Shown here in pieces: positions 20,687 through 36,957 of a stretch of 64,000 nucleotides of DNA; within the stretch, counting starts at the first letter, position 1, and every line of letters starts with the position of its first letter. The notes beneath the pieces were generated by a model, which made no database searches, had not been told where the DNA came from, and saw nothing but the letters and a program-made list of their open reading frames with translations. Origin of the DNA: Verrucomicrobiota bacterium JB023. GTDB taxonomy: Bacteria > Verrucomicrobiota > Verrucomicrobiia > Verrucomicrobiales > Akkermansiaceae. Position numbers and translations under genes: made by a program. The stretch is taken from contig JAUTCR010000009.1 in NCBI GenBank assembly GCA_030673895.1, positions 1-64,000 of the forward strand, given 5' to 3'.

Positions 20687-21364
20687 ATGATGCCCGTCCT
20701 CTCTCTTGATGCTGCCGGAACTCTCATCCACCCCGCCGAACGCGTGGGCGCCACCTATGCTCGCATCGCGGCACGACATGGCTTGGATGCCGACCCCAAC
20801 GAGCTGGACAGACGCTTTGCCGCGGCGTTTGCCACTCACCCTGCCCCCCGCTACCTACCCGGCGAAAATGGAGACAAGGCCGAACGTGCTTGGTGGGAGG
20901 AACTGGTGAAAGCGGTGTTCGAGGAAGAAGACCTGATTGATTTCCCCTCCTTTTTTAACGAGCTTTTTGCTCACTTTGCCTCCGGAGAGGCTTGGGCGCT
21001 CTATCCTGACGCCAAGCCCTTCTTAAATGAGGCCAAGAACCGGGGATTCCGATTGATTATGGTTTCGAACTTTGATCGTCGCCTCCATTCGATTTGCCAC
21101 GACATGGATCTCAGCTCCTATTTTGACTTCATCCTCACCTCGGCTGAAGCCAAAGCCCGGAAACCCTCTCCATTGATTTTTCAGATGGCCGAGAACCGTC
21201 TTGGCCCCGACCCGGGAAGGATTCACCACATTGGCGATTCACCCGAGGCTGACATGAGGGGCCCCCATTCAGTCGGCTGGCGTGCGGACCTCATCGAGAG
21301 ACCCAAGGACGATCTCCTCTCTATCCTTTCCCGACTCACTCGCCCTGCCCGAAGCGACGCTTGA
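20687..21364 (+). CDS. HAD superfamily hydrolase, general-acid Asp replaced
   Basis: HAD (IA subfamily) protein of 225 residues. Motif I reads SLDAAGTL near residue 7: the nucleophile Asp is present, but the second Asp of the usual DxD, the general acid in phosphatases, is Ala. Motif II lies in a MVSNFDRR strand, motif III supplies Lys in EAKARKPSP, and motif IV is HIGDSPEAD. The DREG-2/HDHD3-like branch also lacks the second Asp, so this could be a poor phosphatase or another function. Two adjacent ATG codons precede the motif; the first is used. The 3' end overlaps the minus-strand ATPase gene by 29 bp. Confidence 0.78.
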   Translation: MMPVLSLDAAGTLIHPAERVGATYARIAARHGLDADPNELDRRFAAAFATHPAPRYLPGENGDKAERAWWEELVKAVFEEEDLIDFPSFFNELFAHFASGEAWALYPDAKPFLNEAKNRGFRLIMVSNFDRRLHSICHDMDLSSYFDFILTSAEAKARKPSPLIFQMAENRLGPDPGRIHHIGDSPEADMRGPHSVGWRADLIERPKDDLLSILSRLTRPARSDA

Positions 21365-23612
21365 ACTGATTGAGCAAATCTTCCACTTTGGCCGCCTCAT
21401 CATCAATGGATTGCGGCGAATCTCCCGATATTTGAGGAGTGGCAGAGAACGGAGAACTCACAGGCTGCGAGTCCGCAACGCCATCGCCAGGCCCTTCCGG
21501 AACGCTGGCCGCCGCAGGTTCAGAATCAGCCGAAGGCGCCTCGTCATCAACCCGCTCGAATGGATTGGCTTCCGCCTTCGCGGGAGGAATTGCGGCTGAT
21601 TCCGGCTCCGAAGCTGTCTTTTCACTCTTCCATGCGGAACTCAAATCCTTCTCCCAGGATGGTGGCTCAGTCGGCTGGAAGGGCGACTCGCTCGGCTTAC
21701 TCGGTTCGTTCGGTTCACTCGAGGGAGGCGCGGACGCCAAATCAAAGGGGTTGCCGACTCCGCCCTCATCGCCTGCTTCCTTTGGCGCAAGGGGCTGAGA
21801 AGGCCGAGCAGGGGCCGAGGCTTCATCCTCAGCGACCCGGAACGGTGATTCCTCAAGGCGAGGCACTTCTTCTGCCTGCTTGGTCTGCTGAAAGGAATTC
21901 TCAAAGATGCCCTCTTTCGACTCCGATGAATTCTCGTCTTTGGCAACCGCTTCCCCGGGCAAGTCCCAAGGCAATTTCACTGGTTCCTCTTGAGACTTCT
22001 GGGAAAAACCTTCCGGCTGGAGAATGGGAGGTTCGTCAACAACTTCATCTTCCTTACTTCCCGAACGAAGTCCAAAGGGATCAGGCAGATTTTCTGGAAT
22101 CGTCTCGTCGGGGACACTGAAAACCGGCTCTGCAGGCTCTTTCTGAGGCTCAACATCGATTACCGGCTTAGGCTCTTCCGCCCCGAAGATACCAGAATCA
22201 ACCATTTGCCGGGGAACATCGACCTCAGGCTCGACGGCAACCGTCTCGCTGTCACTGGACTGCGGCACCGCTTTGAAAGGACTTTCGGACTCAGCTTCTG
22301 TTTCGAAAGGATTGCCCACCACCTCCTCGACTGCAGGGACAGGTTTCTGCTCCACTTCAGAAGGCTTCACTGGGGCAGCAAAATCCGCTGTCTTCTGCTC
22401 TGCCTTGGAGGGCTCTTCTTTCTCCACCAAGGGCTCAAGCACCGTGGGCAGCGCCGGGGGCACAGGAACTGACTCCTTCTCTTTCGAGGTATCGTCACTC
22501 CCCTCACTTGCCAAAGACTTCTGTAAGCGGGAAGCCTCGCGCATGATATCGCGAGCAAACAATCCCCCGCCGAAACTCATCCGCGCGAGAATAGCCTCCG
22601 CATCAGCTCCGAAACGCCCCTTAACCAGAGCCTTGGCCTCGTCTTCCGAAGCCTCCACCAAATCAACGGGATACTCGGTCAAGCGATCCCGCAAGCCACC
22701 AGGCATCAGCGGCTCGAAACCGGTCTCCCAGACGTCTTGGTTGACACTCAGAATCAGAGTCAAATCAGGACAGGCTTGGCGGACCTGCACAAGGAAAGCA
22801 GCCACCCGCAGTCCATCCTCCGGCTGATTGGACAAGCCCTCCGTCTCATCAAATACCAAAACGACCGGCTCGACGAGACCGAGCAGACAGAAGAGCGCAT
22901 GCAGCCGCTCCTCGGCCATTCCGCTCCCCAAAGTCTTCAATTCGGCAAAAACGGCTTCCGTAAGCTGCCGAGTCCGTTCAACACGCTCAGGAGCGGTGGT
23001 TGCAAAGCGAAACAGCAAATCAATCCAATAAGAGGCATCACGCAAGGCCGCCCCCGACTTTTCACTCAGTTCCGCTGCAAGCCTTGGCCCCAAAACCTCG
23101 AAATTTGACTGCGTCCAATGGGCTGTCGCCGCCTGCTGGTGGTGAAAATCAAAAGTTTCGACCGGGCGATTCTCCAGGGCGAAAATTGCCCCCTCCCTGT
23201 CGTGACTGGGGATTTCTCCCGAAACCAGCAGCGGCCTCAGGCCGACGGCCAGAAGACGACGAGCGAAGAAATCAAGCTCTGTCAATCCTCCCGAGGCTGG
23301 CAGGATTCCAGTCAATTGACGCAAGACGCTCTCAAGAACAACGTGGGCGTCCAACTTGCCTCCACAAGTTGGCTCAGCTGCGAGAAATTTGAATTCATCG
23401 CCGAGAGAACTACGAAGCGACTGCAAGAGGAGCGTTTTCCCGTAGCCCGCCCGGGGCGAGCGAAGGAGAATGACCCGTCCCGATTCCTGCTTGGCCTCTC
23501 TGACCAGCGCCTCGAGTTGGGTCATCGCTTTCCCATTGATTTCGGGTACGACCTTGACCAAAGAACGGCCAAAGACTTCAAAGAGAGTTGGGGGAATGGA
23601 AGACTGGGACAT
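21336..23612 (-). CDS. P-loop ATPase with long acidic tail carrying repeated NPF/SPF/DPF motifs
   Basis: Protein of 758 residues in two parts. The first 365 residues form a P-loop ATPase: a Walker A-like SPRAGYGKT at 52-60 (the first Gly is replaced) and a Walker B VVLVFDETEGL at 250-260, followed by a sensor-like LILSVNQDVW. The remaining about 390 residues are Glu/Pro/Ser-rich and probably disordered. They contain eight x-P-F tripeptides: NPF at 434, 621 and 683, DPF at 511, SPF at 444, 589, 643 and 720. The last 20 residues form a basic helix. I do not recognise the tail in any family. It is the third gene of a minus-strand run after a secretin and an AsmA-like membrane protein, suggesting an envelope role. 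Confidence 0.75.
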   Translation of the reverse strand: MSQSSIPPTLFEVFGRSLVKVVPEINGKAMTQLEALVREAKQESGRVILLRSPRAGYGKTLLLQSLRSSLGDEFKFLAAEPTCGGKLDAHVVLESVLRQLTGILPASGGLTELDFFARRLLAVGLRPLLVSGEIPSHDREGAIFALENRPVETFDFHHQQAATAHWTQSNFEVLGPRLAAELSEKSGAALRDASYWIDLLFRFATTAPERVERTRQLTEAVFAELKTLGSGMAEERLHALFCLLGLVEPVVLVFDETEGLSNQPEDGLRVAAFLVQVRQACPDLTLILSVNQDVWETGFEPLMPGGLRDRLTEYPVDLVEASEDEAKALVKGRFGADAEAILARMSFGGGLFARDIMREASRLQKSLASEGSDDTSKEKESVPVPPALPTVLEPLVEKEEPSKAEQKTADFAAPVKPSEVEQKPVPAVEEVVGNPFETEAESESPFKAVPQSSDSETVAVEPEVDVPRQMVDSGIFGAEEPKPVIDVEPQKEPAEPVFSVPDETIPENLPDPFGLRSGSKEDEVVDEPPILQPEGFSQKSQEEPVKLPWDLPGEAVAKDENSSESKEGIFENSFQQTKQAEEVPRLEESPFRVAEDEASAPARPSQPLAPKEAGDEGGVGNPFDLASAPPSSEPNEPSKPSESPFQPTEPPSWEKDLSSAWKSEKTASEPESAAIPPAKAEANPFERVDDEAPSADSEPAAASVPEGPGDGVADSQPVSSPFSATPQISGDSPQSIDDEAAKVEDLLNQFKRRFGQGE

Positions 23613-23702
23613 AGAAAGAATGCTAAGTCGTTTCTCAGAAGCTTTTGGATCCCTTCCAAGACCGCAAGCAAGAAGGCTGTATTGCCACGGAAAGAACGAC
23701 CC

Positions 23703-25187
23703 TTAGCGAGTCAGCTGGTCGAATAATGACTCTCCGTCCACCGGCTGACGTGTTTCCACTGGCTCAGGCGCATCAGTGAAATACGTGCCGAAATCGTCCG
23801 AAGGCGAAGAAACCGTTCCGCCAAGTTTGACCGGCACCCAGTCAAAACCATCCAACTTCTTGCAAGCGCGCTCGAACCTCAATTTCTGGCTATTCGGAAT
23901 CCGCAGCTTCTTGTGAGTAGGGAGACCAACCTCCAAATCGCCGGACAGACGCTGGCCGTCAATTTTCAGATTCCCCCGAAGACCGACGACACCCGTCTCC
24001 CGCAAATCAATGTCCCTCAATTCAACAGTCTGGCCACTCCGGTGAACCGTGAATTGACATGCCGAACTGATCTCCGGGCTCTTGTAGTTCACTTCTTGGA
24101 AAATCTCACGAAGCTCCTCCAAAAATTCGAATTGGGCCAAGGTCACATAAGAAGGATTGGCTTCGAGATGCACCTGATGGCTGTCATAGTTCCAGCTATC
24201 GAAGGTCAACAGACCCATCTCCTCCTCGAAGCGCCCCATAACGAGCTGACCCAAGTTCCGGCCAATGACAGATGAAAACGGGGTCTCATTGACAGTCAGG
24301 TTCAACGTCTTCTCTCCCTCATCCTTTAGTAAAGCACCACTCAGAACGACCTGGCCAGAGGGCTCGTCGCCAAGCCGGAATGACACGACCTCCACCCGAT
24401 CACTCCCAGTGAGAAGAGTCGCTCTCTGGATCGGCAACTGCCCCCATCCCGGCAAGACCAGCTCGCCGCCCTCCAAAAGGAATTCGGCCCCACCCAGACG
24501 GGGCTTCATGACCGCGCTCGTTCCTGAGATTCGGAAATTCGAATTCTTTTTCCCAAAGAAAGCGGAGAGGTAATCACAGCGGAAACGAGCAAAGTCAGGC
24601 TCAGCGAGTGCCTCACCATCGACGCGAGGCAACTGGCGACCTTCGGACTGGGAAAAAGTGACAAGCCCTTTCTCAGCCCGGACCAATTCCCCACTCCACT
24701 GTCCCGTCAAAAAGGAATACCATTTGAGGTCCGCCTTGACCGCATCCAGTCGAACCTCCTCCAGAAAAGAACCCTCGGGCCATTTGCTGGTCACCGTGCG
24801 GGCGCTGACGCTGGTGGGTAAGACATGAAGCTGCTTGAAGGTCGCGGTCCCCGCACCCATTTCACTTACCGTGGCACGGAGATCACCGGCAAACCCGCTG
24901 CTATGGTAACGAGCAAGAAGCAGCAAAAGACCGATGCAGAGAAGGAGCGGAACGGCAATCAACGCGATCAAGCGAACCCGCCCAACGACCTTCTTGCGTT
25001 TGGCAATTTCGTCTTTCTTTTGTTTAGAGCGCCTCTTTCGTTTCCGCACTCTCAGCGCTTGGCTCCCGTCTGATCTGGTAACTATTTCACCATCTTCGCG
25101 TGCGGATTTCGTCCGCTCGCCGTCGCGAAGCTTATCCAGCATCTCATCGACGCTGTAAGAGCGGTTATCAGGATTTGATTGGGACAT
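23703..25187 (-). CDS. AsmA-like single-pass membrane protein
   Basis: Protein of 494 residues, not assigned to a named family. The first 65 residues are polar and basic (RVRKRKRRSKQKKDE), then one membrane helix (about 70-92). About 400 residues outside the cytoplasm follow, made of repeated beta segments such as GLRGNLKIDGQRLSGDLEVG near the C-terminus. That pattern resembles AsmA/TamB-type proteins that work between the two membranes. It sits between the secretin gene (38 bp upstream) and the ATPase gene (90 bp downstream), all on the minus strand. It may be the inner-membrane partner of the secretin. No known pilus-assembly motif such as PilN or PilO was found. Confidence 0.65.
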   Translation of the reverse strand: MSQSNPDNRSYSVDEMLDKLRDGERTKSAREDGEIVTRSDGSQALRVRKRKRRSKQKKDEIAKRKKVVGRVRLIALIAVPLLLCIGLLLLLARYHSSGFAGDLRATVSEMGAGTATFKQLHVLPTSVSARTVTSKWPEGSFLEEVRLDAVKADLKWYSFLTGQWSGELVRAEKGLVTFSQSEGRQLPRVDGEALAEPDFARFRCDYLSAFFGKKNSNFRISGTSAVMKPRLGGAEFLLEGGELVLPGWGQLPIQRATLLTGSDRVEVVSFRLGDEPSGQVVLSGALLKDEGEKTLNLTVNETPFSSVIGRNLGQLVMGRFEEEMGLLTFDSWNYDSHQVHLEANPSYVTLAQFEFLEELREIFQEVNYKSPEISSACQFTVHRSGQTVELRDIDLRETGVVGLRGNLKIDGQRLSGDLEVGLPTHKKLRIPNSQKLRFERACKKLDGFDWVPVKLGGTVSSPSDDFGTYFTDAPEPVETRQPVDGESLFDQLTR

Positions 25188-25225
25188 GGAGGAGAAGATT
25201 GCTGACAGCCCGTAGTCAGGGATGG

Positions 25226-27682
25226 TCAGCGAGGCTGGTAGTCATTCCCACCCGGGTCAACCACACGCACCGTCACAAAAATCATCACCAACTTCTTCTG
25301 CCGAAGATTGACTTCGGATCGGAAGCCTCGGCCGATGAGCGGAAGGTCACCTAAAAGCGGCACCTTGTCTTCCACTTTTTCAACCTGCTCGGTCACCACC
25401 CCACCGATGAGCACGGTGTGGCCATTGGCAATGGTGACTTGGGTCCTCGCCCGCACTGTGTCGAAGAGAGGCATGAGAATGTCATTCGAGGTCACCTCCC
25501 CCGCTTGACCCGTGACATCAATCCCCGAGAGCCCGAAGCTAGCCTGCGTGCTCCCCCCTCGCAGAGGCTCCCCGTAGTTGATGAAGCCGAGAAACTCTTT
25601 GATGGTGGGCGTGATCGTCAAATCAACGACCGAGCGATCCTGACTCACGATTGGCTGAACCTCCAGAATTGTTCCGACATTGGCGGTCTCAAAGGCGGTG
25701 GGGTGAGAAGGTGTCGGGATAAACGAAGTCGGGCTCACCGATTGCCCTGTATCCAGATCGGTCAGGGTGGAGGTACCAATCGAATCCGGCATTTCCGGCG
25801 GATCGTATTCGGTGGGGTAGATCAGCTCTTTCACCGACTCGATGACCGCTTGCTCACCATTCCGGGTGACCACTGAAGGCTGGGTCATCAGGTCGACCCC
25901 CTTCTTGTTCTGCAGTCCACGGAGGAGGACTGACACCCCGTAATCGTCAATGACGCCAAGGGCGGAAAGGAATCCGGGAGCAGAAGCCACCGAATCTGAC
26001 ACATCGTCGGGGGTGAACGTGTTGGTGCCGGAGAGAGTCGTCACCGCCGCAGTCACTTGCCGCTGCTCTCGGTTGAGCAGATTATTAAGCGGGTCACCCG
26101 AGACGGCGAAATCGCCACTCCGCAATCCGGCCGAAACAGGATTCAAACCCGTGATAAAATCAGAAGCCCGGCCGTTGCTGGTCGTTCCACCGCCCAAAAA
26201 CATGTTCCCGTCATTCACAAGCTTGTCGAATGCGGTATCGAAACCTAACTCCTCGATGTTCTCTTGCTCCACCCGAACAAGCTTCGTCTCGATCACGACC
26301 TGAATCGGCTCCTGTTCGCGAAGGGCGGCGAGCACGTCCTCGACGGCCTGATGATTGACCGAGGTGTTTTTAACGAAAAGCTCTCCCAAGGCCGCGTTGA
26401 AGCTGGCAGTGGCACCCTCAGGGAACCCAACCCCCGAGTTTTCAAGAATTTCCCTAGCGGATAGGCGGGGAGCAAGGCGGCTCTGCCCTTCATCATCTGA
26501 ACCAAAAGGATCGTTGTCAGCTGCAGTGGCTGCGCTTGACTGGGTCATGAAGGCTGGCGGCACCTTATAACGACGGACCACCAAGGTATCGGTGGCTCCC
26601 GCCAGAGGGCTGATCACGACAGCGAAATCATCGACCCGGTAGCGCGTCTTGGTTTGGCGAGTCACATACTCAAGCACTTGCCGCAGCGGAACATTGCGCA
26701 AACGGAAGGAAAACCGACGGTTCAACACCTCCCGAGCTTCCGGCGTATTGCCACTGCCAACATCAATCACAAAGCTTACCCCCTTTTCCGACTCCTCAGA
26801 GATTGGGTCCAAATTGCGAGCCTGAGCCTCTAGATACTCAACAGCCTCGCGGAGACTGCTTTCTTCAAATTCTACAAAGGGAACGATGATCTCATCCAGC
26901 TTGCGATTGAGCGCCCTGGCTTGCACGCCCCCACCGATGGCGCCGACATCTTGGAATAGAAGCTCTTCGGCGAGCACCTTCTTCTCAGGCAATTGCCAAC
27001 CCGCTTCCACTTGGTTTAGCAGGTCGGCCCGCATGTGATCGTAAGCAACTCCCGCGTATTCCGAGATCTGAGCATTGCACCGCTCCATTCCCCGGCGGGC
27101 CGCCTTGTTGTATTGGTCGATACGGAGGACGGATTCGTAAAGCGCCAGAGCTTTGTCAAAGTCGCCTAGATTGTAAGCCCCTTCGGCAGTATAGAGAAGT
27201 CGGCGCACTTCATCGACATTGGCAACATGCTCGGGAGTCGCCGCAGGATTGGACCGAATTGGATCGAAAAGCTTGCCTTGCATAATCTGCGCAGGCGCGT
27301 AGTCGGGATCGACATCAGGAGAGAGAACCTCCTCCATCAGACGAAGTGCATCCTCTCTCCGCCCTTCCCGATTCATGACCTTGGCCGCCTCCACAGCAGC
27401 TTGCGCGTAGCGCTGACGGGCGCCCGCCCTCAGTCCCGCGGTCTTCTCACCTTCCGGCAGCAGAGAATAGGCGGCCCGGTAGGCCTCCACAGCTTTCTCG
27501 AACTCGGAAGCGCGGTAAAAGGTATCGCCAGAAAGAATCTGCTCCTCGGCGGAAATCACCTGATCCCGGCGCTGAGCGCGTTCCTTGCCTAGCAGAGATT
27601 GCGAGAGAGCGACTTCCGAGGTCAGAAGTCCCAAGCCGACAAGCCCGAGGGCCAACTTCATTGAATTACAATTTTTCAACAT
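25226..27682 (-). CDS. Type IV pilus/type II-like secretin, Amuc_1098-like
   Basis: Outer membrane secretin of about 818 residues. After a signal peptide (about 1-30, ending VALSQS) come TPR-like helical repeats (about 40-215). A STN/N0-like segment follows, with a RFSFRLRNVPLRQVLEYVT strand-helix pattern. An N1-like segment precedes the secretin domain (about 520-800), which has ends such as VLIGGVVTEQVEKVEDKVP and LGDLPLIGRGFRSE. The TPR-plus-secretin layout matches the Akkermansia Amuc_1098 family better than standard PilQ. The start is uncertain: ATG 27682 and 27661 both precede the signal peptide; 27727 adds 15 more residues. pilM, pilN, pilO and a pilus ATPase are not adjacent. The AsmA-like and ATPase genes follow. 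Confidence 0.85.
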   Translation of the reverse strand: MLKNCNSMKLALGLVGLGLLTSEVALSQSLLGKERAQRRDQVISAEEQILSGDTFYRASEFEKAVEAYRAAYSLLPEGEKTAGLRAGARQRYAQAAVEAAKVMNREGRREDALRLMEEVLSPDVDPDYAPAQIMQGKLFDPIRSNPAATPEHVANVDEVRRLLYTAEGAYNLGDFDKALALYESVLRIDQYNKAARRGMERCNAQISEYAGVAYDHMRADLLNQVEAGWQLPEKKVLAEELLFQDVGAIGGGVQARALNRKLDEIIVPFVEFEESSLREAVEYLEAQARNLDPISEESEKGVSFVIDVGSGNTPEAREVLNRRFSFRLRNVPLRQVLEYVTRQTKTRYRVDDFAVVISPLAGATDTLVVRRYKVPPAFMTQSSAATAADNDPFGSDDEGQSRLAPRLSAREILENSGVGFPEGATASFNAALGELFVKNTSVNHQAVEDVLAALREQEPIQVVIETKLVRVEQENIEELGFDTAFDKLVNDGNMFLGGGTTSNGRASDFITGLNPVSAGLRSGDFAVSGDPLNNLLNREQRQVTAAVTTLSGTNTFTPDDVSDSVASAPGFLSALGVIDDYGVSVLLRGLQNKKGVDLMTQPSVVTRNGEQAVIESVKELIYPTEYDPPEMPDSIGTSTLTDLDTGQSVSPTSFIPTPSHPTAFETANVGTILEVQPIVSQDRSVVDLTITPTIKEFLGFINYGEPLRGGSTQASFGLSGIDVTGQAGEVTSNDILMPLFDTVRARTQVTIANGHTVLIGGVVTEQVEKVEDKVPLLGDLPLIGRGFRSEVNLRQKKLVMIFVTVRVVDPGGNDYQPR

Positions 27683-28167
27683 CAATGGTGCGGTGCGTCT
27701 GACCCTTATAAGCAACTCATTTCGCAACGGCCATCACTAAATCAGGCCAATTGCGGCACAAATTTCAAATCCGACGCCATCGTCAATACAAGCGTCAACT
27801 CCCCTCTGATCAGCAAGACAACCAGACCTTGAGCCCTGCGCCCCGCTCCTCATGTGCTGAGCGGAAGATCAAGCTGACGGTGATGGTGAGCACGACGATG
27901 ACCCTGCAAGCGCAGCCGTATCCGAATCAGCTGCCGTTTGAGAATGCCGAGACGAACCCTGACCCACCATAATCTGATTCTCCATGCGAATTTGGACATG
28001 ACGATGATTTATGGAATAATGAACAACTGTTCAAGCGAATTATTCAGAAGACTTAAATTTTCTGTCACTCTTCGAGATGAATGCGTATTGTCGTCCAGAC
28101 GCTGTCTGGATGCTCGCTTGTTACCCTAAGGGAAATCAGCGTAGTCCTTGCATCGACCTACACGGGC
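27683..28167. other. Divergent intergenic region, secretin and CheB-CheR kinase
   Basis: About 485 bp between divergent start codons, so it should hold promoters for both genes. It is A/T-rich near 27990-28080 and more GC-rich at 27850-27960. A 73-codon plus-strand frame and a 38-codon minus-strand frame were read but neither shows a domain or clear start signals. No convincing gene or operator is visible. Confidence 0.5.
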
Positions 28168-31100
28168 ATGAACGAACACCCCACGAAGGAGAATCAAGCT
28201 CCTGAACTCATTGTCTGCCTCGGCGCCTCAGCCGGCGGTTTGGAGGCGCTTGAAGCCTTCTTTAAACAACTTCCCGATGACCTGGACTGTGCTTTTGTGG
28301 TCGTTCAGCATTTGTCTCCCGACTTCAAGAGTCTCATGGGTGAGATTCTGACCCGATGCACGTCGCTGCCAATTGTCACTCTGAAGGATGGAGGCACTCT
28401 GCAGCGCAACTGCGTGCATCTGATCCCGCCCACGAAGGAAATTCGTTTCGAGGGATTAACCGCTCGCTTGGGCGAGCGGCCCTCCAAGGGAGTCCCGCCT
28501 ATGATTATCGATCACTGTTTCCAGTCTCTTGCTTCCGAGTTCGGGCAAAAGGCGGTGGCTATCGTTCTTTCGGGCACGGGTAGCGATGGGAGCCGGGGCG
28601 TCGCGAGCATTGCGGAGGCTGACGGCTTGGTCATCGTTCAGGACCCGCTCGATGCAAAGTTCGACGGCATGCCGAGGAGCGCTATCAATACGGGTGCCGT
28701 GCACCTGATCCTGACTCCCGGTGAGATGCCGGGCATCGTGAACCGCTTTCGTCACGACCCGGATTCCGGTCGGCAACCTCTCCCCCCCTTGGGCTTGTCG
28801 GAGAACCTGAGCGACATCCAGCGCATCCAGCGAGCTCTCAAGAACAACTTTGGGGTCGACTTCGGTCGCTACTACAAGGAAGGAACCATCAATCGCCGAA
28901 TCGATCGTCGCGTCAAAATCACCCACAAGACCGACCTCGCCACTTATCGCCATCTGGTTGAGTCAAACAAGGATGAGCTTGAGGCGCTCTACAAGGATCT
29001 GCTTATCGGCGTCACCTCATTCTTTCGCGATCCGGAGGCCTTCGAACAGCTGGAGAAACTCGTCTTTCCGAGGTTTCTTGATGATACCAACCGGGAATCG
29101 ATTCGCATTTGGATCCCCGGATGCGCGAGCGGCGAGGAGGTTTATTCCATCCTCATCCTCCTGCTGGAATTCCTTCGGGACAACGAAGCTTCCATCCCAG
29201 TCAAAATCTTCGCCACGGATCTCCATCGTGATTCCCTCGATCTCGCCAGCACCGCCATCTACACCAATGAAGCACTTCATGCGGTGCGGCCGGAGCTGAT
29301 CTCGCTCTATTTCAGGAAGGTGCCGGGAGGCTTTCAAGTCAGCCATAAGCTGCGGGAGATGGTCGTTTTCGCCCGGCATAATCTCATTGAAGACGCCCCT
29401 TTCACCCGGATGGACCTGGTGGTTTGCCGCAATTTGCTCATCTATTTCAATCAAGAGGCGCAGACGAGGGTCTTGGGGCTGTTTGGGTATTCGCTCGTTC
29501 AAAATGGTCACGTCTTCCTCGGCACGAGCGAGAGCATTCCGGAGAAAAATAAAAACTTCGCGCAAATCGACGGTTCGGCCCGAATCTTCCGCAAGGTGCG
29601 GGAAATTGATTTTGTGACTTCCTTCCGGGCGGTCGACCCCGGTTCGCCAAAGCCCGGGGCCGCCGTGCAGCACAATCCGATCATACGCTCCAAGAATCCT
29701 TCGGAGCGGATCCTCGATTCCCTCCTCGGTTGCTTTGTCCCAAGCGGCTTCCTTGTGAACCGGGAGAATCAACTGGTCTACACCGTGGGCAATGTTTCCC
29801 GGTTCCTCCGGCTCTCGCCGGGCCGCATGACCGACGACTTCCTGCAGATGGTGCCCGAGAAGCTGCGTCTCCACTTCACCGGAGCCATTCGGCGGTCATT
29901 CTCCGAGCAAAAAGCGATCGACTATGGAATCATCACTCTCGACGAATCCGTGGAAAACGGGAAGACCGAGCGCTTCCACCTCCGCGCGCTTCCCGTGGAA
30001 GACTACTCGCACAATCTGCAACACACGTTCCTCTCTCTCACCAGACCGCAGGAAGAAACTCCCGCGCAAGAGAGCCAAACTCGCGCGCCCAGCCTGGAGC
30101 TTCCCGAACTGGCCGCCCGTCGGATCGAGGAACTTGAGAACGAGCTCGCCCTCTCACGTGAGGGCCACCAAACCGTTGTCGAAGAACTGGAAAGCTCCAA
30201 CGAAGAACTGCAATCAACGAACGAGGAGCTGATTGCTTCCAATGAAGAGCTCCAGTCCACCAATGAGGAGCTGCAATCCGTCAATGAAGAGCTTTATACG
30301 GTCAATGCCGAGTTCGACTCCAAGAACAGGGAGCTGAGTATCCTTTCTTCAGACTTGGAGAACTTTCTCCAATCCACACAGATTGGGACCATTTTCCTCG
30401 ACTCGAGCTACAACATCAGACGCTTCACTGAAGCTGCCGGTCACGCCATGCATCTGCGCGACGGTGATGAAGGCCGCCCCATTCTTCACGTCACATCGCC
30501 GCTCGGGCTCAATGCCAATGACTTGCTCACCATCCTAAAATTAGTAGAGGATAGCGGCCAGCCCGAAGAGCGGGAAATTGAAGGACCGAATGGAGCTTGC
30601 TTCCTTCTCCGGGTTCTCCCCTTCAGCGAGAGCACAAGTGAGAGCCCGGGCTTCGTCCTCACCTTCGTTGACGTCTCCCCGGTCAAGGAATCCGAGAGAG
30701 AGCGCGAGCGGCTCGCTGCCAATCTCCAAAATCTCATCGAGTCCGTCGATGGCATCCTCTTGACTCTCGGGAAGGACGGCGAGGTTACCAAGCCATCCCA
30801 GAGCTGGCAGTCCTACACCGGACAGCTCTGGCACGACTATAAAAAGCACGGCTGGCTGGACAAGATTGAGAACGCGCCACGGCCGGAGGACATCTTCACG
30901 CCCGACGTCATCAGTAGGCGCCGCTTCCAACATCAATTTTCGCTCTGGTCGGATGAAACCAAGAGCTTCCGGCATTGTCTGGCTCGATTCTCGGCCTTAC
31001 CTGCCGACGAGGGCTGGGCCGGCCTGATTGTCGATCTTGAGAACGAAACTGAAACCCGCCGCATACTTGAGCAAAAGCAAGCCGTGCTGGATGAAGTGAC

Positions 31101-32199
31101 CGACCAGACCTCCACTTGTATCTTCCTGAAGGACCTCGATGGCACCTACATGAGCCTCAACCGCTTCGCGCGCGAGCTGATGAACATTACCAAGGAACAA
31201 GTGGATGCCGGAATCAGCGACTTCGACCTCTTCCCCGAGAACGAGGCGCAAAAAATCAGGGAAGACGATCTCAAGATCATCGAGAGCAAGGAGCGAGCTC
31301 ATTTTGAGGAAACGGTCGGCGTCCCCGGGGGCAAAGTCCGTATCTTCTCAACGACCAAGATCCCACTCATTGATCAAAACGGAAACGCTTACGGTCTTGC
31401 CGGGGTCTCGACCGATGTCACCGGCCATCGGGAAAGCGAGCGCATCAAGGCGCAAAAGTCGGAACTTGAGCGAGTCAATGCCGAGCTCGAAGACAAGAAC
31501 GAACAGCTCGACACTTTTGCCACCGTGGCCTCCCACGATCTCAAGCAGCCTCTTCGCATTATCACGAATTACTCGGACATTCTGCTTGAGGAAGAGGCGT
31601 CCAAATTCGACTCCCAGACCGTTATCTACATGCAGCGGATCTCAGACGCTGCGCGACGTCTCAATAACTTGCTCGAATCTATCTTTGAATACTCCCGTTC
31701 CAGTCGCGAGTCTCTCAAACGCTCCGAGATCGATACCAATGCCATCTTGGACGAAGTGCTCGAAGCGCACCACACCAGCATCAAGGAAGGGAAAGTCCAA
31801 GTGATAGCGGAAAGCCTGCACCCCCTGACGGCCGACCGGAATATGTTCTACCAGATCCTCCTCAACCTCGTCGGGAATAGCCTCAAGTTCCGCTCCACCA
31901 CTCACCCGACCCTGCATGTTTATAGCAGACAGCTCGAGGGTGGGAGAATCGTCTTCGGTGTCTCGGACAATGGCATCGGCATCGCCGACAAGCACTTCCC
32001 ACGAGTCTTCGAGCCGTTCGAACGCCTTCATTCGCGGGAGGATTATGAAGGAAGCGGCATCGGGCTATCCGTCGCCAAGACCGTTGCCGTTCGCCACGGT
32101 GGCGATATCAAAATTGCCTCTCGGCAAGGTGAAGGGACCACTGTTGAATTCGCCTTACAACCTGGAACCGATTGGGAAACCCAGCATCCTCCATCATGA
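28168..32199 (+). CDS. CheB-CheR-PAS-histidine kinase fusion
   Basis: Multidomain signalling protein of 1343 residues. The CheB methylesterase domain (about 12-190) has all three catalytic sites: Ser in GASAGGLEAL, His in QHLSPDFKS and Asp in GTGSDGS. The CheR methyltransferase domain (about 205-475) has the SAM loop GCASGEEVYS. A coiled coil (about 665-720) repeats the heptad-like SNEELQSTNEEL. PAS-like domains (about 725-1088) precede a HisKA dimerisation helix with the phospho-acceptor in VASHDLKQPLRII, and an HATPase with GIGIADKH and GSGIGLS. ATG 28168 starts just before the CheB domain; an upstream frame is open to 28081. It overlaps the next gene by 4 bp. The chemoreceptor-modification domains work probably in a non-motility pathway. 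Confidence 0.9.
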   Translation: MNEHPTKENQAPELIVCLGASAGGLEALEAFFKQLPDDLDCAFVVVQHLSPDFKSLMGEILTRCTSLPIVTLKDGGTLQRNCVHLIPPTKEIRFEGLTARLGERPSKGVPPMIIDHCFQSLASEFGQKAVAIVLSGTGSDGSRGVASIAEADGLVIVQDPLDAKFDGMPRSAINTGAVHLILTPGEMPGIVNRFRHDPDSGRQPLPPLGLSENLSDIQRIQRALKNNFGVDFGRYYKEGTINRRIDRRVKITHKTDLATYRHLVESNKDELEALYKDLLIGVTSFFRDPEAFEQLEKLVFPRFLDDTNRESIRIWIPGCASGEEVYSILILLLEFLRDNEASIPVKIFATDLHRDSLDLASTAIYTNEALHAVRPELISLYFRKVPGGFQVSHKLREMVVFARHNLIEDAPFTRMDLVVCRNLLIYFNQEAQTRVLGLFGYSLVQNGHVFLGTSESIPEKNKNFAQIDGSARIFRKVREIDFVTSFRAVDPGSPKPGAAVQHNPIIRSKNPSERILDSLLGCFVPSGFLVNRENQLVYTVGNVSRFLRLSPGRMTDDFLQMVPEKLRLHFTGAIRRSFSEQKAIDYGIITLDESVENGKTERFHLRALPVEDYSHNLQHTFLSLTRPQEETPAQESQTRAPSLELPELAARRIEELENELALSREGHQTVVEELESSNEELQSTNEELIASNEELQSTNEELQSVNEELYTVNAEFDSKNRELSILSSDLENFLQSTQIGTIFLDSSYNIRRFTEAAGHAMHLRDGDEGRPILHVTSPLGLNANDLLTILKLVEDSGQPEEREIEGPNGACFLLRVLPFSESTSESPGFVLTFVDVSPVKESERERERLAANLQNLIESVDGILLTLGKDGEVTKPSQSWQSYTGQLWHDYKKHGWLDKIENAPRPEDIFTPDVISRRRFQHQFSLWSDETKSFRHCLARFSALPADEGWAGLIVDLENETETRRILEQKQAVLDEVTDQTSTCIFLKDLDGTYMSLNRFARELMNITKEQVDAGISDFDLFPENEAQKIREDDLKIIESKERAHFEETVGVPGGKVRIFSTTKIPLIDQNGNAYGLAGVSTDVTGHRESERIKAQKSELERVNAELEDKNEQLDTFATVASHDLKQPLRIITNYSDILLEEEASKFDSQTVIYMQRISDAARRLNNLLESIFEYSRSSRESLKRSEIDTNAILDEVLEAHHTSIKEGKVQVIAESLHPLTADRNMFYQILLNLVGNSLKFRSTTHPTLHVYSRQLEGGRIVFGVSDNGIGIADKHFPRVFEPFERLHSREDYEGSGIGLSVAKTVAVRHGGDIKIASRQGEGTTVEFALQPGTDWETQHPPS

Positions 32200-32609
32200 C
32201 TACCATTGCCCTCGTCGAAGACGATCCAGATGAGCGTCTCTTCATTACCCGTGCCATCGACCAGCTCCCTCTGGAGGTCAGCGTGGACTACTTCACCGAT
32301 GGAGAGGAGGCCATTGAAGGCCTTTTGGGAGCGGAAAAGGGCACCTACGCCTTAATCCTACTCGATCTCAAGATCCCGAAAATCGACGGGATTGGCGTTC
32401 TGAATTCTCTAGGCAATGGCAAATCTAGCAGATATACCCCTGTCATTGTCTGTTCGGGCTCAAAATCTAGTCAGGATGTTCAGCGAGCCTGGGAGGCTGG
32501 ATGCTCTGGTTACTTCGCGAAACCGGACAGCCCAACAGGTTATCGCGAGATGATCCAAACCATCGTAGGCTATTGGCTCTCCCCTCTCTTGGTGAGCCCG
32601 GAAGCCTAA
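32196..32609 (+). CDS. Single-domain response regulator (Rcp1-like)
   Basis: Receiver domain of 137 residues without an output domain. The acidic pocket is at EDDPDE near the N-terminus, the phospho-acceptor Asp lies in LILLDLKIPKIDG, and Ser/Thr and Lys switch residues appear in VIVCSGSKSS and FAKPDSP. The ATG overlaps the stop of the CheB-CheR kinase (ATGA), so translation is coupled. The kinase is the obvious phosphodonor. Such proteins usually act by binding a partner or as a phosphorelay intermediate. Confidence 0.92.
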   Translation: MTTIALVEDDPDERLFITRAIDQLPLEVSVDYFTDGEEAIEGLLGAEKGTYALILLDLKIPKIDGIGVLNSLGNGKSSRYTPVIVCSGSKSSQDVQRAWEAGCSGYFAKPDSPTGYREMIQTIVGYWLSPLLVSPEA

Positions 32610-32621
32610 TTAGCACGAACC

Positions 32622-32996
32622 ATGAACAACATTCTCATCATCGACGACGAGAAAGACTTCTGCATCGGGCTCAAGCAATGTCTTGAGTCTCTCGGCATCT
32701 ATAAGGTCTCCTACCGGACTGAACCGGAACGGGTGGAATATAGCCTCGAGTATGAAGATGCGGATGTCATCCTGGTCGATCTCCGGATGGACGACCGGTC
32801 GGGTGAAGAATTGATCCTCTCCCTCAGAGGAAATGATGAGAAGCCAGTCAAACGCTTCATCGCCGTCTCCGGAATCACTGCGGTGGAGACCCAGATCCCG
32901 ATTAATCCTCCAGTCCCCCTCCTACCCAAGCCAGTCAACATCAGTCGACTGCACGAGCTTATCCAAGAAACTCTTACCCAACCCTCGGTCGCTTGA
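32622..32996 (+). CDS. Single-domain response regulator
   Basis: Receiver domain of 124 residues, again without an output domain. DDEKDF forms the acidic pocket, the acceptor Asp is in VILVDLRMDDRSGEE, and FIAVSGIT and LLPKPVN hold the switch Ser and Lys. It lies 12 bp after the other receiver and is probably in the same transcript. Its 3' end overlaps the convergent receiver-kinase gene by 23 bp. Two single receivers beside one CheB-CheR kinase suggest a branched phosphorelay. Confidence 0.9.
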   Translation: MNNILIIDDEKDFCIGLKQCLESLGIYKVSYRTEPERVEYSLEYEDADVILVDLRMDDRSGEELILSLRGNDEKPVKRFIAVSGITAVETQIPINPPVPLLPKPVNISRLHELIQETLTQPSVA

Positions 32997-34131
32997 CCAA
33001 GGGCACGAACCAAATGGCCATCGCCCCTCCCTCTGGGAGATTCTTAAGCCCGATGGAACCACCTCGACGGCTGGCAATCATTGATGTGATCCACAACCCC
33101 AGACCCGTCCCGCTGCCCGTCTGTTTGGTCGAGCGGAAAGCTTCGAAATAAGAGGAGGGGTCTCCTTGAAACCCCGCCCCTTCATCAATCACCCGCAAGA
33201 CAGCGTAGTCTTGCTTCGGATTGAGCAAACTGGAGAACGCCATATCCCGGACGGGACCGCGGCTGATTCCTGTTTCCAACCTCACCCGGCCTTCCTCCCC
33301 GGTCGCGTCGAAGGCGTTCTCCAACAGATTGACGAGGATCTGGACCAGCTCCGAGCGATCCACCTCCACAGGCAAGACCTCGGAGCCCAAATCAAAATCA
33401 AAACGCTCTTGAGCACCCTCCCTCCAAGCATAGTCATGAGAGAGCGCTTCGGTCACCGCGTGCCGCAAGTCCACCTCGTGGGTCGGCTCAGCACTGGGTC
33501 GTGAGAATAGAAGCAGGCGATCAATTAACTTGGTGCCCCGAGTCACCGCCCGGCTGATCCGTGCGGGCACTTCCTGCAAATCCTCGGGTATTTCATTTTT
33601 ACGGATCTCCAGCACACCTGCCCCGAGTCCGATAATCCCGAAAGGATTCTTCACCTCGTGAGCCATCGCTGTCACCAGTCGGCCCAAGGCGTGCAGCTTT
33701 TCACCTTCCATCAAGCGCTGCTGCGCGGCGGACAGCTCTTTTGTCAAGCGGTCACGCTCGACCGCCAGGAGGATAGCTCTCTCCAAACTGGGAGGCCTAA
33801 GGCCGTCCTTGAGGAGGTAGTCTTGGGCCCCCTTGGCGACCAGCCCCAATGCCAAGCCCTCATCCATCATGCCGCTCAGGATCACGATCGGGCTTTCGGT
33901 CATTTCCTTCACCGCTCGATAGGTTTCCTGGCCCCGACTGCCGGGCAGATTAAGGTCCAGGAGGATGATGGAGGGATGTCCCTCCTCACTAATCACCTTT
34001 GCGGTCTCTTCCAAATCTCTCGAAAAGGTGAGCCTGATATTGGTCAATGTCTCAGCCCGCTCCAGGCAACGCTGAGTCCAGAGACGATCATCGGGATCGT
34101 CTTCGACCAGATGGATCCATGATATTTCCAT
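32974..34131 (-). CDS. Receiver-histidine kinase hybrid
   Basis: Protein of 385 residues with an N-terminal receiver domain (1-125; DDPDD pocket and SIILLDLNLPGS acceptor) followed by a histidine kinase. The HisKA helix has LVTAMAHEVKNPFGI with the phospho-His, and the ATPase domain includes LENAFDATGEEGRV and GSGTGLGLWIT. No membrane helix or sensor domain is visible, so input probably comes through the receiver or the short linker. It is convergent with the receiver genes and shares its last 23 bp with them, which suggests all four act in one circuit. DNA-binding output is absent, so the final target is unknown. Confidence 0.9.
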   Translation of the reverse strand: MEISWIHLVEDDPDDRLWTQRCLERAETLTNIRLTFSRDLEETAKVISEEGHPSIILLDLNLPGSRGQETYRAVKEMTESPIVILSGMMDEGLALGLVAKGAQDYLLKDGLRPPSLERAILLAVERDRLTKELSAAQQRLMEGEKLHALGRLVTAMAHEVKNPFGIIGLGAGVLEIRKNEIPEDLQEVPARISRAVTRGTKLIDRLLLFSRPSAEPTHEVDLRHAVTEALSHDYAWREGAQERFDFDLGSEVLPVEVDRSELVQILVNLLENAFDATGEEGRVRLETGISRGPVRDMAFSSLLNPKQDYAVLRVIDEGAGFQGDPSSYFEAFRSTKQTGSGTGLGLWITSMIASRRGGSIGLKNLPEGGAMAIWFVPLVKRPRVG

Positions 34132-34274: not shown

Positions 34275-36239
34275 CTAAATATCCTTGGGTGCACGGACGA
34301 CTCGATCCACCCCATGCTTGGTAATTATGTTGCCTCTTGTCGCCCTTCCCTTGAGCGCAATTTCACCAAATTGGAAAGGCCGGGAGACATTCCTTAGGCG
34401 CAACGCCGGCTTGAGATGGATGAGAACCGTATTGGCCGCGCTCTCTTCCTCGCTGTCGTGCACGGCGAAGTAGAGCACTCGGGTCCCCTTCCCTCCTTTG
34501 GCCAGCTCATATTCCTTGTCCCGGGTGACCCCGCCAACTTTGAAGCGCTTCGCCAGGACCGGGCCATCACGCCCCTCCCGATAAATCATGGAGTAGATTT
34601 TCTCTTCACCCTTTCTGAAAATATCGACATGGATAGGCTTCTGCCCAACAAAGACTTTCTCCGCGATCTTCACCACCCGCATAATTCCCTCTTGGGTGAA
34701 TGAAATGATGTCATCCATCCGCGAACATTTGGTGAGCGCTTCTTCTTTCTTCAATCCCCACCCTGCAAAGCCATTCTTCCGGTCGAGGTAAAGAGTCTCG
34801 TTGACCGCGACGACTTGAGTCCGGTCCACAGCTTCGAAGGTCTCGATGACCGTCTTTCGCTCGCGACCCTTGCCATACTTCTTCTTGAGATTCTCGAAAT
34901 AGCGGATGCTGTATCGCGTGAGATTGCGCAGGTTCTTCTCGGTTTCCGCAATGGCATCCTCCAGAGACTTGATCTCCTCATCGGCACGGAAGGAGTCGTA
35001 TTTAGAGATCCGTTTAATCTTAATCTCGGTCAGTCGGATGATATCATCTCGCGTGACTTCGCGCTTGAGGAGTTTCTTGAAGGGATCCAGCCCCTTGTCG
35101 ATGGCCTCGATTACAGCTTCCCAAGTCTCGCATTCCTCAATGTCGCGATAGATACGGTTCTCGATGAATATCTTCTCCAAGGAGCTGAAGTGCCACTTGT
35201 CATTGAGTTCGCCCAATCGAATCTCCAGCTCCCACTTCAGCAAATCCTTGGTCTGAAAGGCGCACCGCCGCACGATCTCCGAGACCCCGAGGAAGGCCGG
35301 CTTGCCATCCGCGATCACACAGGAATTAGGCGCAATCGAGACCTCACAGTCCGTAAACGCGAAGAGCGCGTCCCGAGCCTTCTCCGAGTCCACTCCCGGA
35401 GGCAACTGAATGGTGATGTCCGCCGTAGCGGCCGTGAAATCATCCACTTTCGAAATCTTAATTTTACCCTTCTCATTCGCCGCGACGATCGATTCAGCCA
35501 AGCTTTTGGTCGTCACCCCGAAGGGAACCTCGGTGACCCGGAGGAGGCGGCCCTTTTCAATCTCCACCTTGGCCCGCACCCGGATGCGCCCGCCGCGCAA
35601 GCCATCCTTGTAATCGGAGCAATCCATGATGCCACCGGTAGGAAAGTCCGGGTAGAGCTCGAAACTTTCCTTCCTCAGGCTCGCAATGCAGGCGTCCAGT
35701 AGCTCAATGAAGTTGTGGGGAAGAATCTTACAGGCCAAGCCCACCGCGATGCCCTCGGCCCCTTGAGCGAGAACGAGCGGAAACTTCATGGGAAGGGTCA
35801 CCGGCTCCTTGTTCCGGCCATCATAGCTCGCCGTCCACTCCGTGGTCTTCGGATTGAAGGCCACCTCCAGGGCGAAGGGAGTGAGCCGTGCCTCGATGTA
35901 TCGAGCAGCTGCCGCAGGGTCTCCGGTCAGGATGTTGCCCCAGTTCCCCTGTGTATCAATGAGTAGCTCCTTCTGCCCTAGGCCGACGATGGCGTCCTTA
36001 ATCGCGGAGTCCCCGTGCGGGTGATACTTTGTCGTGTCTCCCACGATGTTGGCCACCTTGGTGTAGCGGCCATCCTCCATCTGCCTCATCGAGTGCAGAA
36101 TCCTACGCTGGACCGGCTTCAACCCGTCTGCCAGATGCGGCACCGCCCGCTCCAGAATCACGTAGCTCGCGTAATCGATGAAGTAGTCCGAATACATCGA
36201 ACCCAAGCTGCTGTGCTCGTGACTGTCGTCTCCGTTCAT
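34275..36239 (-). CDS. Type IIA topoisomerase A subunit (ParC/GyrA type)
   Basis: DNA-cleaving subunit of about 654 residues that relaxes, decatenates or supercoils DNA with an ATPase partner. The beginning SSLGSMYSDYFIDYASYVILE and the PVQRRILHSM winged-helix segment are typical; the catalytic Tyr lies in AARYIEARLTP. The coiled-coil and C-gate region extends to about residue 460. The C-terminal part is only about 190 residues, shorter than the 6-blade GyrA domain, and lacks a clear GyrA box, so topoisomerase IV-like function is more likely. ATG 36239 was chosen because the conserved region starts about 15 residues later. The partner B subunit is not adjacent. Confidence 0.86.
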   Translation of the reverse strand: MNGDDSHEHSSLGSMYSDYFIDYASYVILERAVPHLADGLKPVQRRILHSMRQMEDGRYTKVANIVGDTTKYHPHGDSAIKDAIVGLGQKELLIDTQGNWGNILTGDPAAAARYIEARLTPFALEVAFNPKTTEWTASYDGRNKEPVTLPMKFPLVLAQGAEGIAVGLACKILPHNFIELLDACIASLRKESFELYPDFPTGGIMDCSDYKDGLRGGRIRVRAKVEIEKGRLLRVTEVPFGVTTKSLAESIVAANEKGKIKISKVDDFTAATADITIQLPPGVDSEKARDALFAFTDCEVSIAPNSCVIADGKPAFLGVSEIVRRCAFQTKDLLKWELEIRLGELNDKWHFSSLEKIFIENRIYRDIEECETWEAVIEAIDKGLDPFKKLLKREVTRDDIIRLTEIKIKRISKYDSFRADEEIKSLEDAIAETEKNLRNLTRYSIRYFENLKKKYGKGRERKTVIETFEAVDRTQVVAVNETLYLDRKNGFAGWGLKKEEALTKCSRMDDIISFTQEGIMRVVKIAEKVFVGQKPIHVDIFRKGEEKIYSMIYREGRDGPVLAKRFKVGGVTRDKEYELAKGGKGTRVLYFAVHDSEEESAANTVLIHLKPALRLRNVSRPFQFGEIALKGRATRGNIITKHGVDRVVRAPKDI

Positions 36240-36354
36240 GAAAGTGAACGCCAATGCTTGGGAGAACTTAAGCATCCCGCAAGCCCTTAGGGCGGCAGCA
36301 ATTTGCGCCCGGGCTAACCTTGCACTTCTCCCCTCGCCCTCTCTAAATGAGCTC

Positions 36355-36957
36355 GTGTCCGACTTTTCTCTTTCGACATACACTGGCGGCCTGGTTGCGA
36401 CAAACGGCCACTTCCTCACTTGCGGCGAGACCAGATTGCTCATCGACGCCCCCGACGGCGTCTTCGACTGGTTAGCAGCCAAGGGCGAGACCCCCGATGC
36501 GATTTTGCTCACCCACCAGCACTTTGATCACGTCGAGGATGCGCATCGCTTCGATTGCCCGATCCATGCCTTCTCACCGATGGACCGCGATCTCATCCTC
36601 GATGCCCGCGCCCGGGAGTGGGGCCTTCCGGTCAAGGTGGAAGACTTCAAGGTCGGCAAGATACTCAAAGAAGAACCGACGCTGACCATCGGTCAGCTCG
36701 AGCTGCAACTCATCCACGTCCCCGGCCACTCTCCCGACTCCCTCGTGTATCACCTCCCCGCCCTAGCCACCGCCTTCGCCGGCGACACCCTCTTCTGCGG
36801 AGGAGTCGGGCGCACCGACCTCCCCGGTGGCTCTCACGAGACTCTCATCTCAGGCATCAGGGAGAAATTGCTCACTCTCCCCCCCCAAACAACCTTTTAC
36901 CCCGGCCACGGCCCATCCACCACCGCGGCCGACGAGCAGGAAAACCCTTTTCTGTGA
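36355..36957 (+). CDS. MBL-fold metallo-hydrolase
   Basis: Metallo-beta-lactamase fold hydrolase of 200 residues. The metal-binding THQHFDHVED motif (THxHxDH) is near residue 55, HVPGHSPDSL holds the next His, and FAGDTLFCGGVGRTD supplies the bridging Asp. This pattern fits glyoxalase II-like or other thioester hydrolases. The start is GTG 36355; an in-frame ATG at 36238 would overlap the start of the topoisomerase gene and adds an unlikely leader. Substrate is unknown. It is divergent from the topoisomerase gene. Confidence 0.82.
   Translation: MSDFSLSTYTGGLVATNGHFLTCGETRLLIDAPDGVFDWLAAKGETPDAILLTHQHFDHVEDAHRFDCPIHAFSPMDRDLILDARAREWGLPVKVEDFKVGKILKEEPTLTIGQLELQLIHVPGHSPDSLVYHLPALATAFAGDTLFCGGVGRTDLPGGSHETLISGIREKLLTLPPQTTFYPGHGPSTTAADEQENPFL

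Follow-up and report, generated by a model that had tools for sequence, protein, structure and literature searches.

A pilus-family secretin and a predicted AsmA-like inner-membrane protein form a two-gene module in an order of Verrucomicrobiota

In Verrucomicrobiota bacterium JB023, a secretin of the Amuc_1098 family is encoded directly upstream of an AsmA-like protein, and these two genes are the core of a module found in several family-level groups of one order. A profile search for the AsmA-like protein in 192 genomes of the order gave a full-length match in 74, and in all 74 a secretin of the kind that we call type B lies immediately upstream on the same strand; for this count the secretin rows were hand-picked from match lists, and only genomes with a full-length AsmA-like match were counted. 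We believe that transport or anchoring of hydrophobic cargo across the envelope is the probable role of the pair, and that the pair is not the pilus machine suggested by the database name of its secretin. Our preferred reading, drawn by analogy with a type II secretion system (T2SS), is a tentative one: the pair may be a conduit or bridge for acylated cargo, in which a periplasmic groove would shield the acyl chains and hand the cargo to the type-B secretin.

Results

The window, by which we mean the whole stretch of 64,000 nucleotides analysed, contains three minus-strand genes in the transcription order secretin, AsmA-like protein, ATPase. The sequence-only reading had placed the three on one strand with gaps of 38 bp (secretin to AsmA-like gene) and 90 bp (AsmA-like gene to ATPase gene), and the coordinates bear this out:

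25226..27682, minus strand: type-B Amuc_1098-family secretin, ~818 aa from the ATG at 27682; 865 bits to NF042912
27023..27595, minus strand: N-terminal TPR region of the secretin, Pfam TPR matches at ORF residues ~67-212; outer limits approximate
25256..25915, minus strand: Secretin domain PF00263, Pfam match
23703..25187, minus strand: predicted AsmA-like inner-membrane protein, 494 aa, AF2 model; its gene directly follows that of the type-B secretin in 74 of 74 genomes
25020..25157, minus strand: predicted cytosolic segment of the AsmA-like protein (YSVDEM..RL...EIVTRSDGSQALRVRKRKRR), best-conserved part in the family alignment
24906..24992, minus strand: predicted single transmembrane helix of the AsmA-like protein, residues ~66-94 by hydropathy; helix 56-94 in the AF2 model
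23769..24848, minus strand: predicted periplasmic beta-groove domain of the AsmA-like protein, residues ~114-473, from the AF2 model and structural matches
21336..23612, minus strand: AAA+ ATPase with a long acidic tail, 758 aa; facultative neighbour
22491..23534, minus strand: predicted ORC/Cdc6/RdrA-like AAA+ domain of the ATPase, residues 27-374, AF2 model pLDDT 87.3
21339..22457, minus strand: acidic xPF-rich tail of the ATPase, 8 PF motifs, net charge -52
21339..21404, minus strand: C-terminal helix motif of the ATPase, V-E/D-[DE]-LL-x-QF-[KR]-x-R-[FY]-G, common to most homologues, same family-level clade

Besides the ATG at 27682, the secretin could start at a TTG at 27727, which gives the longest ORF, or at an ATG at 27661, which opens a signal-peptide-like stretch. 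A plus-strand HAD-like ORF (20687-21364) shares 29 bp with the ATPase gene at the latter's 3' end. Upstream, positions 28081-34131 hold a CheB-CheR-PAS-histidine kinase fusion and receiver-like genes, between a parC-like gene (34275-36512) and the secretin; this block looks like an insertion because in close relatives (L040, L041, L046) parC and the secretin are direct neighbours.

The likeness of the secretin to Amuc_1098 noted from the sequence proved solid, with 865 bits against NF042912 (Amuc_1098_fam; cut-off 750) and a match to the Pfam Secretin domain. The genome encodes four secretins, two of them of the Amuc_1098 family, namely the window copy and a copy on contig C35. The operon of the latter contains members of the Amuc_1101 (PilM-like), Amuc_1100 and Amuc_1099 families, all above curated cut-offs (the NCBIfam models for Amuc_1098-1101 being NF042912, NF042425, NF038287 and NF045709), followed by a CoaE-Rho gene. 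We refer to the C35 copy, in its pilus-type operon, as type A and to the window copy as type B. Of the remaining two secretins, one is a T2SS GspD-like protein encoded near GspM/GspK-type genes on C25, and the other, on C59, is accompanied by E- and F-type genes of its own; the GspE/F-type genes of the genome are on C35, C5 and C59. In the CoaE-Rho gene (L037, 9055-10950 on C35), Rho is apparently fused to an N-terminal dephospho-CoA kinase, recognised by eye and similarity and not by Pfam; in other genera the corresponding position after the type-A secretin is occupied by separate CoaE and Rho ORFs.

Near the window secretin there is no motor, platform or pilin gene, no PilM, PilN or PilO gene and no GspE-like ATPase gene, and the Amuc_1099/1100/1101 context that accompanies the C35 paralog is absent. 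The earlier statement that standard pilus and T2SS partners are missing therefore holds for the locus but not for the genome, in which PilM-like and GspE/PilB-type genes are present with the second Amuc_1098-family secretin on C35. Because that sister copy sits with PilM, Amuc_1100 and Amuc_1099, the missing genes mark the type-B paralog and not the organism. We rejected the possibility that the locus is a fragment of a pilus operon, since the pilus-type operon is the one on C35. A stable linkage to pilMNO in relatives had been envisaged as a contrary outcome. PilM/1100/1099 genes accompany the type-A paralog, and type B pairs with the AsmA-like gene, which was found in none of the type-A (PilM/1100/1099/Rho) loci examined.

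Both types occur in most of the 58 relatives searched and are largely separate in the tree. A single type-B clade was not rejected by the tree test (p-AU 0.156; 0.057 for the ASM-linked rows alone), and the sequences neither establish nor reject that all type-B secretins go back strictly to one origin. Since the paralogs of some lineages group together, duplication in parallel or gene conversion is possible. Mean identity in the secretin domain is 48% within type B against 82% within type A; judged by sequence, type B is the faster evolving paralog and much less constrained.

These data bear on another explanation, in which a type IV pilus or pseudopilus, or DNA uptake, would use the type-B secretin as a second way through the outer membrane and borrow a motor and platform encoded elsewhere, with the AsmA-like protein as an inner-membrane dock or assembly factor replacing PilN/O/P. 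The secretin does exceed the Amuc_1098 equivalog cut-off and has kept its TPR and secretin domains, and several PilB/PilT/PilC-type genes of the genome could be shared. However, given that the role is already filled by the type-A copy in the PilM-1100-1099 operon, that type B is so much less constrained, and that its partner resembles lipid carriers rather than PilN/O/P, we consider this explanation somewhat unlikely.

The AsmA-like protein has no significant Pfam or NCBIfam match. The Pfam AsmA, TamB and T2SSN models matched none of 31 members (T2SSN at E up to 0.1), alignment profiles of this protein and of the ATPase found no matches among PDB sequences, and single members show weak sequence echoes of DUF748 and YhdP. 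An AF2 model based on 31 sequences (pLDDT 84.6) runs from a cytosolic segment with a short helix, through one long membrane-crossing helix, into a periplasmic beta-groove. Its top structural matches are TamB, Vps13 and LPD-3 (Z 7.3-7.6; 6.1-7.6 with Atg2 included), and a row for ApoB at Z 8.1 has a poor rmsd and is poorly superposed. These matches are modest (Z ~7.5; best Foldseek E 2.5e-3), against a background of unrelated porins at Z 5-6.5 in the same search. The model and the one hydrophobic helix agree with the initial description of an AsmA-like single-pass protein, and we predict an inner-membrane-anchored beta-groove of the TamB/AsmA kind. In the family alignment, conservation is highest in the cytosolic segment, which is basic. 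Two AsmA-like paralogs in the genome are unlinked to a secretin (C55:40797-42080 and C5:29297-29629; L038, L039), and their matches exclude the conserved cytosolic segment.

The distances of the two proteins are consistent with a physical partnership between them, although they are no proof of one: after regression on the type-A secretin, type-B secretin and AsmA-like distances remain correlated (partial r 0.58, 14 genomes), in a permutation that does not fully remove shared ancestry. The partnership has exceptions. Family f4 has type-B-like secretins with no AsmA-like gene, and genome G005 has kept the secretin and a DUF374 gene with no AsmA-like gene between them, from which we conclude that the secretin can work without its partner. 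A search of the collection with a single sequence (P0002) returned one named relative, Roseibacillus ishigakijimensis. In six loci from several genera (L044, L045, L047, L059, L060 and L062) a MoxR-DUF58 cluster follows the pair, in some with a transglutaminase-type gene.

One group of genomes (g3) represents Akkermansia or a very close relative, since the Amuc_1100 protein of its member G029 is close to the solved Akkermansia protein 6lad (E 1e-148). Next after the secretin/AsmA-like pair, usually at a distance of 15 bp, the Akkermansia-group loci examined have a DUF374 gene, and no genome of the group tested gave a second strong match to DUF374. The DUF374 family corresponds to LpxJ, whose members are late lipid A acyltransferases (PMC6148475). 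In other genera the one DUF374 gene is unlinked to the pair (on C33 in JB023), so the connection of the pair with acyl-lipid metabolism is limited to a single genus, and the shared operon there may reflect co-expression only. An LpxL-family gene was present in 13 of 13 genomes tested, and a divergent LptD was matched in five of 13 genomes by a profile that is weak for the group, matching G001 and not G000 or G002 of the same genus.

The predicted groove, the directly adjacent LpxJ-family gene of Akkermansia and the few LptD matches would all suit a pair that forms a bridge for phospholipid or LPS transport, with the secretin as an outer-membrane anchor and not a protein channel. The LptD profile, however, performs poorly in this group, and the two unlinked AsmA-like paralogs could carry out general lipid transport. 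Secretins are not, to our knowledge, exits for lipids. We regard such a bridge as improbable.

Among 40 genomes with both the pair and the ATPase gene, the two are side by side in 19, and the ATPase gene is located elsewhere in the other 21; a further 34 genomes, including all tested Akkermansia, keep the pair and have no close ATPase homologue. We therefore treat the ATPase as facultative and reject a three-gene core. Of the envelope module first proposed, the secretin/AsmA-like pair stands and the ATPase does not; the three-gene order sought in relatives is real, but it is not constant. A fragmentary assembly from the same genus (G003, L156; 170 contigs, 2.7 Mb) has the ATPase but neither an AsmA-like match nor a complete Amuc_1098-family secretin.

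The third protein was correctly recognised as a P-loop ATPase with a long, acidic, xPF-rich tail. Its Walker A and B motifs read GYGKT and VFDE, and the P-loop residues G56, G58 and K59, together with D255, N291 and R310, are invariant among its homologues. Pfam and NCBIfam gave only sub-threshold matches (AAA_16, NACHT, AAA_22) and no match to PF00437, the GspE/PilB type, and the modelled domain is most similar to Cdc6 (1fnn_A, Z 14.4) and RdrA (8hr8, Z 14.2). On its predicted fold, and with Walker A, Walker B and sensor residues present, the protein is an ORC/Cdc6-like AAA+ and not a GspE-type motor, an identity that we rejected. A GspA/ExeA-type assembly ATPase was also considered; no clear membrane anchor was seen in the third protein. 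We know of no linkage of ORC/Cdc6-type AAA+ or RdrA families to secretins. Unlike those proteins, this one has a tail of ~373 aa with a net charge of -52 and eight PF motifs, against 2.4 expected (3 of 2000 composition shuffles reach eight), and PF enrichment is strong in most long-tailed homologues tested. Other families of the order have a second AAA+ subfamily (L163-L175), marked by an NPF motif at the N-terminus and an FFWKRITRP-like one at the C-terminus; in the loci examined it is unlinked to secretins.

An ATPase of this switch-like class, with a motif-bearing tail, would fit an envelope scaffold, in which the three proteins tether both membranes and couple them to a cytosolic process with no transport of cargo. 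The strong conservation of the cytosolic AsmA-like segment and the position of the locus beside parC in several genomes would fit as well. Yet the ATPase is dispensable to the arrangement and the groove fold suggests cargo, and we find this reading very doubtful.

Discussion

The closest precedent for the pair is GspN/PulN of the T2SS. GspN is AsmA-like, is encoded in an operon with the secretin GspD, and moves lipoproteins to the surface (PMC12802150). The protein described here is likewise predicted to be an AsmA-like beta-taco with one inner-membrane helix, encoded in an operon with the gene of a dedicated secretin partner. In contrast to GspN, its partner is a pilus-type, Amuc_1098-family secretin, no other T2SS genes are found at the locus (the D, M and K genes of the genome's T2SS being on C25), the T2SSN family is not matched, and there is an extra conserved cytosolic segment. 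Compared with the wider AsmA family (TamB, YhdP, YdbH, AsmA), with which it would share an inner-membrane anchor and a periplasmic beta-groove, the protein has a short groove (~360 aa) and is linked to a secretin.

Amuc_1098 itself is the PilQ of Akkermansia muciniphila, encoded in the operon Amuc_1098-1101 (PMC4960237). The window copy belongs to the same family and has the same TPR N-terminus, whereas the counterpart of the pilus operon is the C35 copy. A literature search found no description, in this phylum, of a second Amuc_1098-type secretin or of a secretin/AsmA-like pair. The superfamilies of the parts and the one T2SS precedent for the pairing are known; the module appears to be undescribed, as had been supposed.

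The data show that the two genes are paired, that the secretin has a paralog and that the locus lacks a platform, and the folds are predicted from models; the cargo roles in the following model of an acylated-cargo conduit are inferred. The second, fast-evolving secretin would form the outer-membrane part, and the AsmA/TamB-like protein, anchored by its single helix in the inner membrane, would present its groove in the periplasm. There the groove may shield the acyl chains of a candidate lipidated cargo, either a surface lipoprotein or a lipid such as LPS, which would then be handed to the secretin; alternatively, the AsmA-like protein may dock on the secretin. In either case the two would cooperate much like GspN and GspD. 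Where present, the AAA+ protein (ORC/Cdc6/STAND-like) might be a cytosolic ATP-dependent switch or scaffold, and one may speculate that its acidic xPF tail contacts the basic cytosolic segment of the AsmA-like protein. The invariable pairing in the 74 genomes, the groove fold, the correlated distances, the DUF374 neighbour in Akkermansia and the lack of a local motor favour the conduit; the modest fold matches, the lack of a Pfam AsmA or T2SSN match, the restriction of the DUF374 link to Akkermansia and the secretins without a partner weaken it.

A more far-reaching form of this proposal, which we think unlikely as it stands, is that a pilus-type secretin has been recruited throughout the order, Akkermansia included, into a dedicated conduit for lipids or lipoproteins, of which it would form the outer-membrane end. 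The AsmA-like groove would be the inner end, no pilus or T2SS motor would be involved, and in Akkermansia the conduit would share one operon with an LpxJ-family acyltransferase.

Akkermansia is a widely studied gut bacterium, and its Amuc_1098-1100 pilus proteins are of therapeutic interest. As the NCBI equivalog model gives both paralogs the name of a type IV pilus protein, the second is likely hidden in annotations, and those affected likely include annotations of Akkermansia. With a secretin fixed to an AsmA-like groove, what was found very recently for GspN would reach outside type II secretion, and the pair gives a starting point for asking how lipoproteins or lipids are put on the surface of these bacteria.
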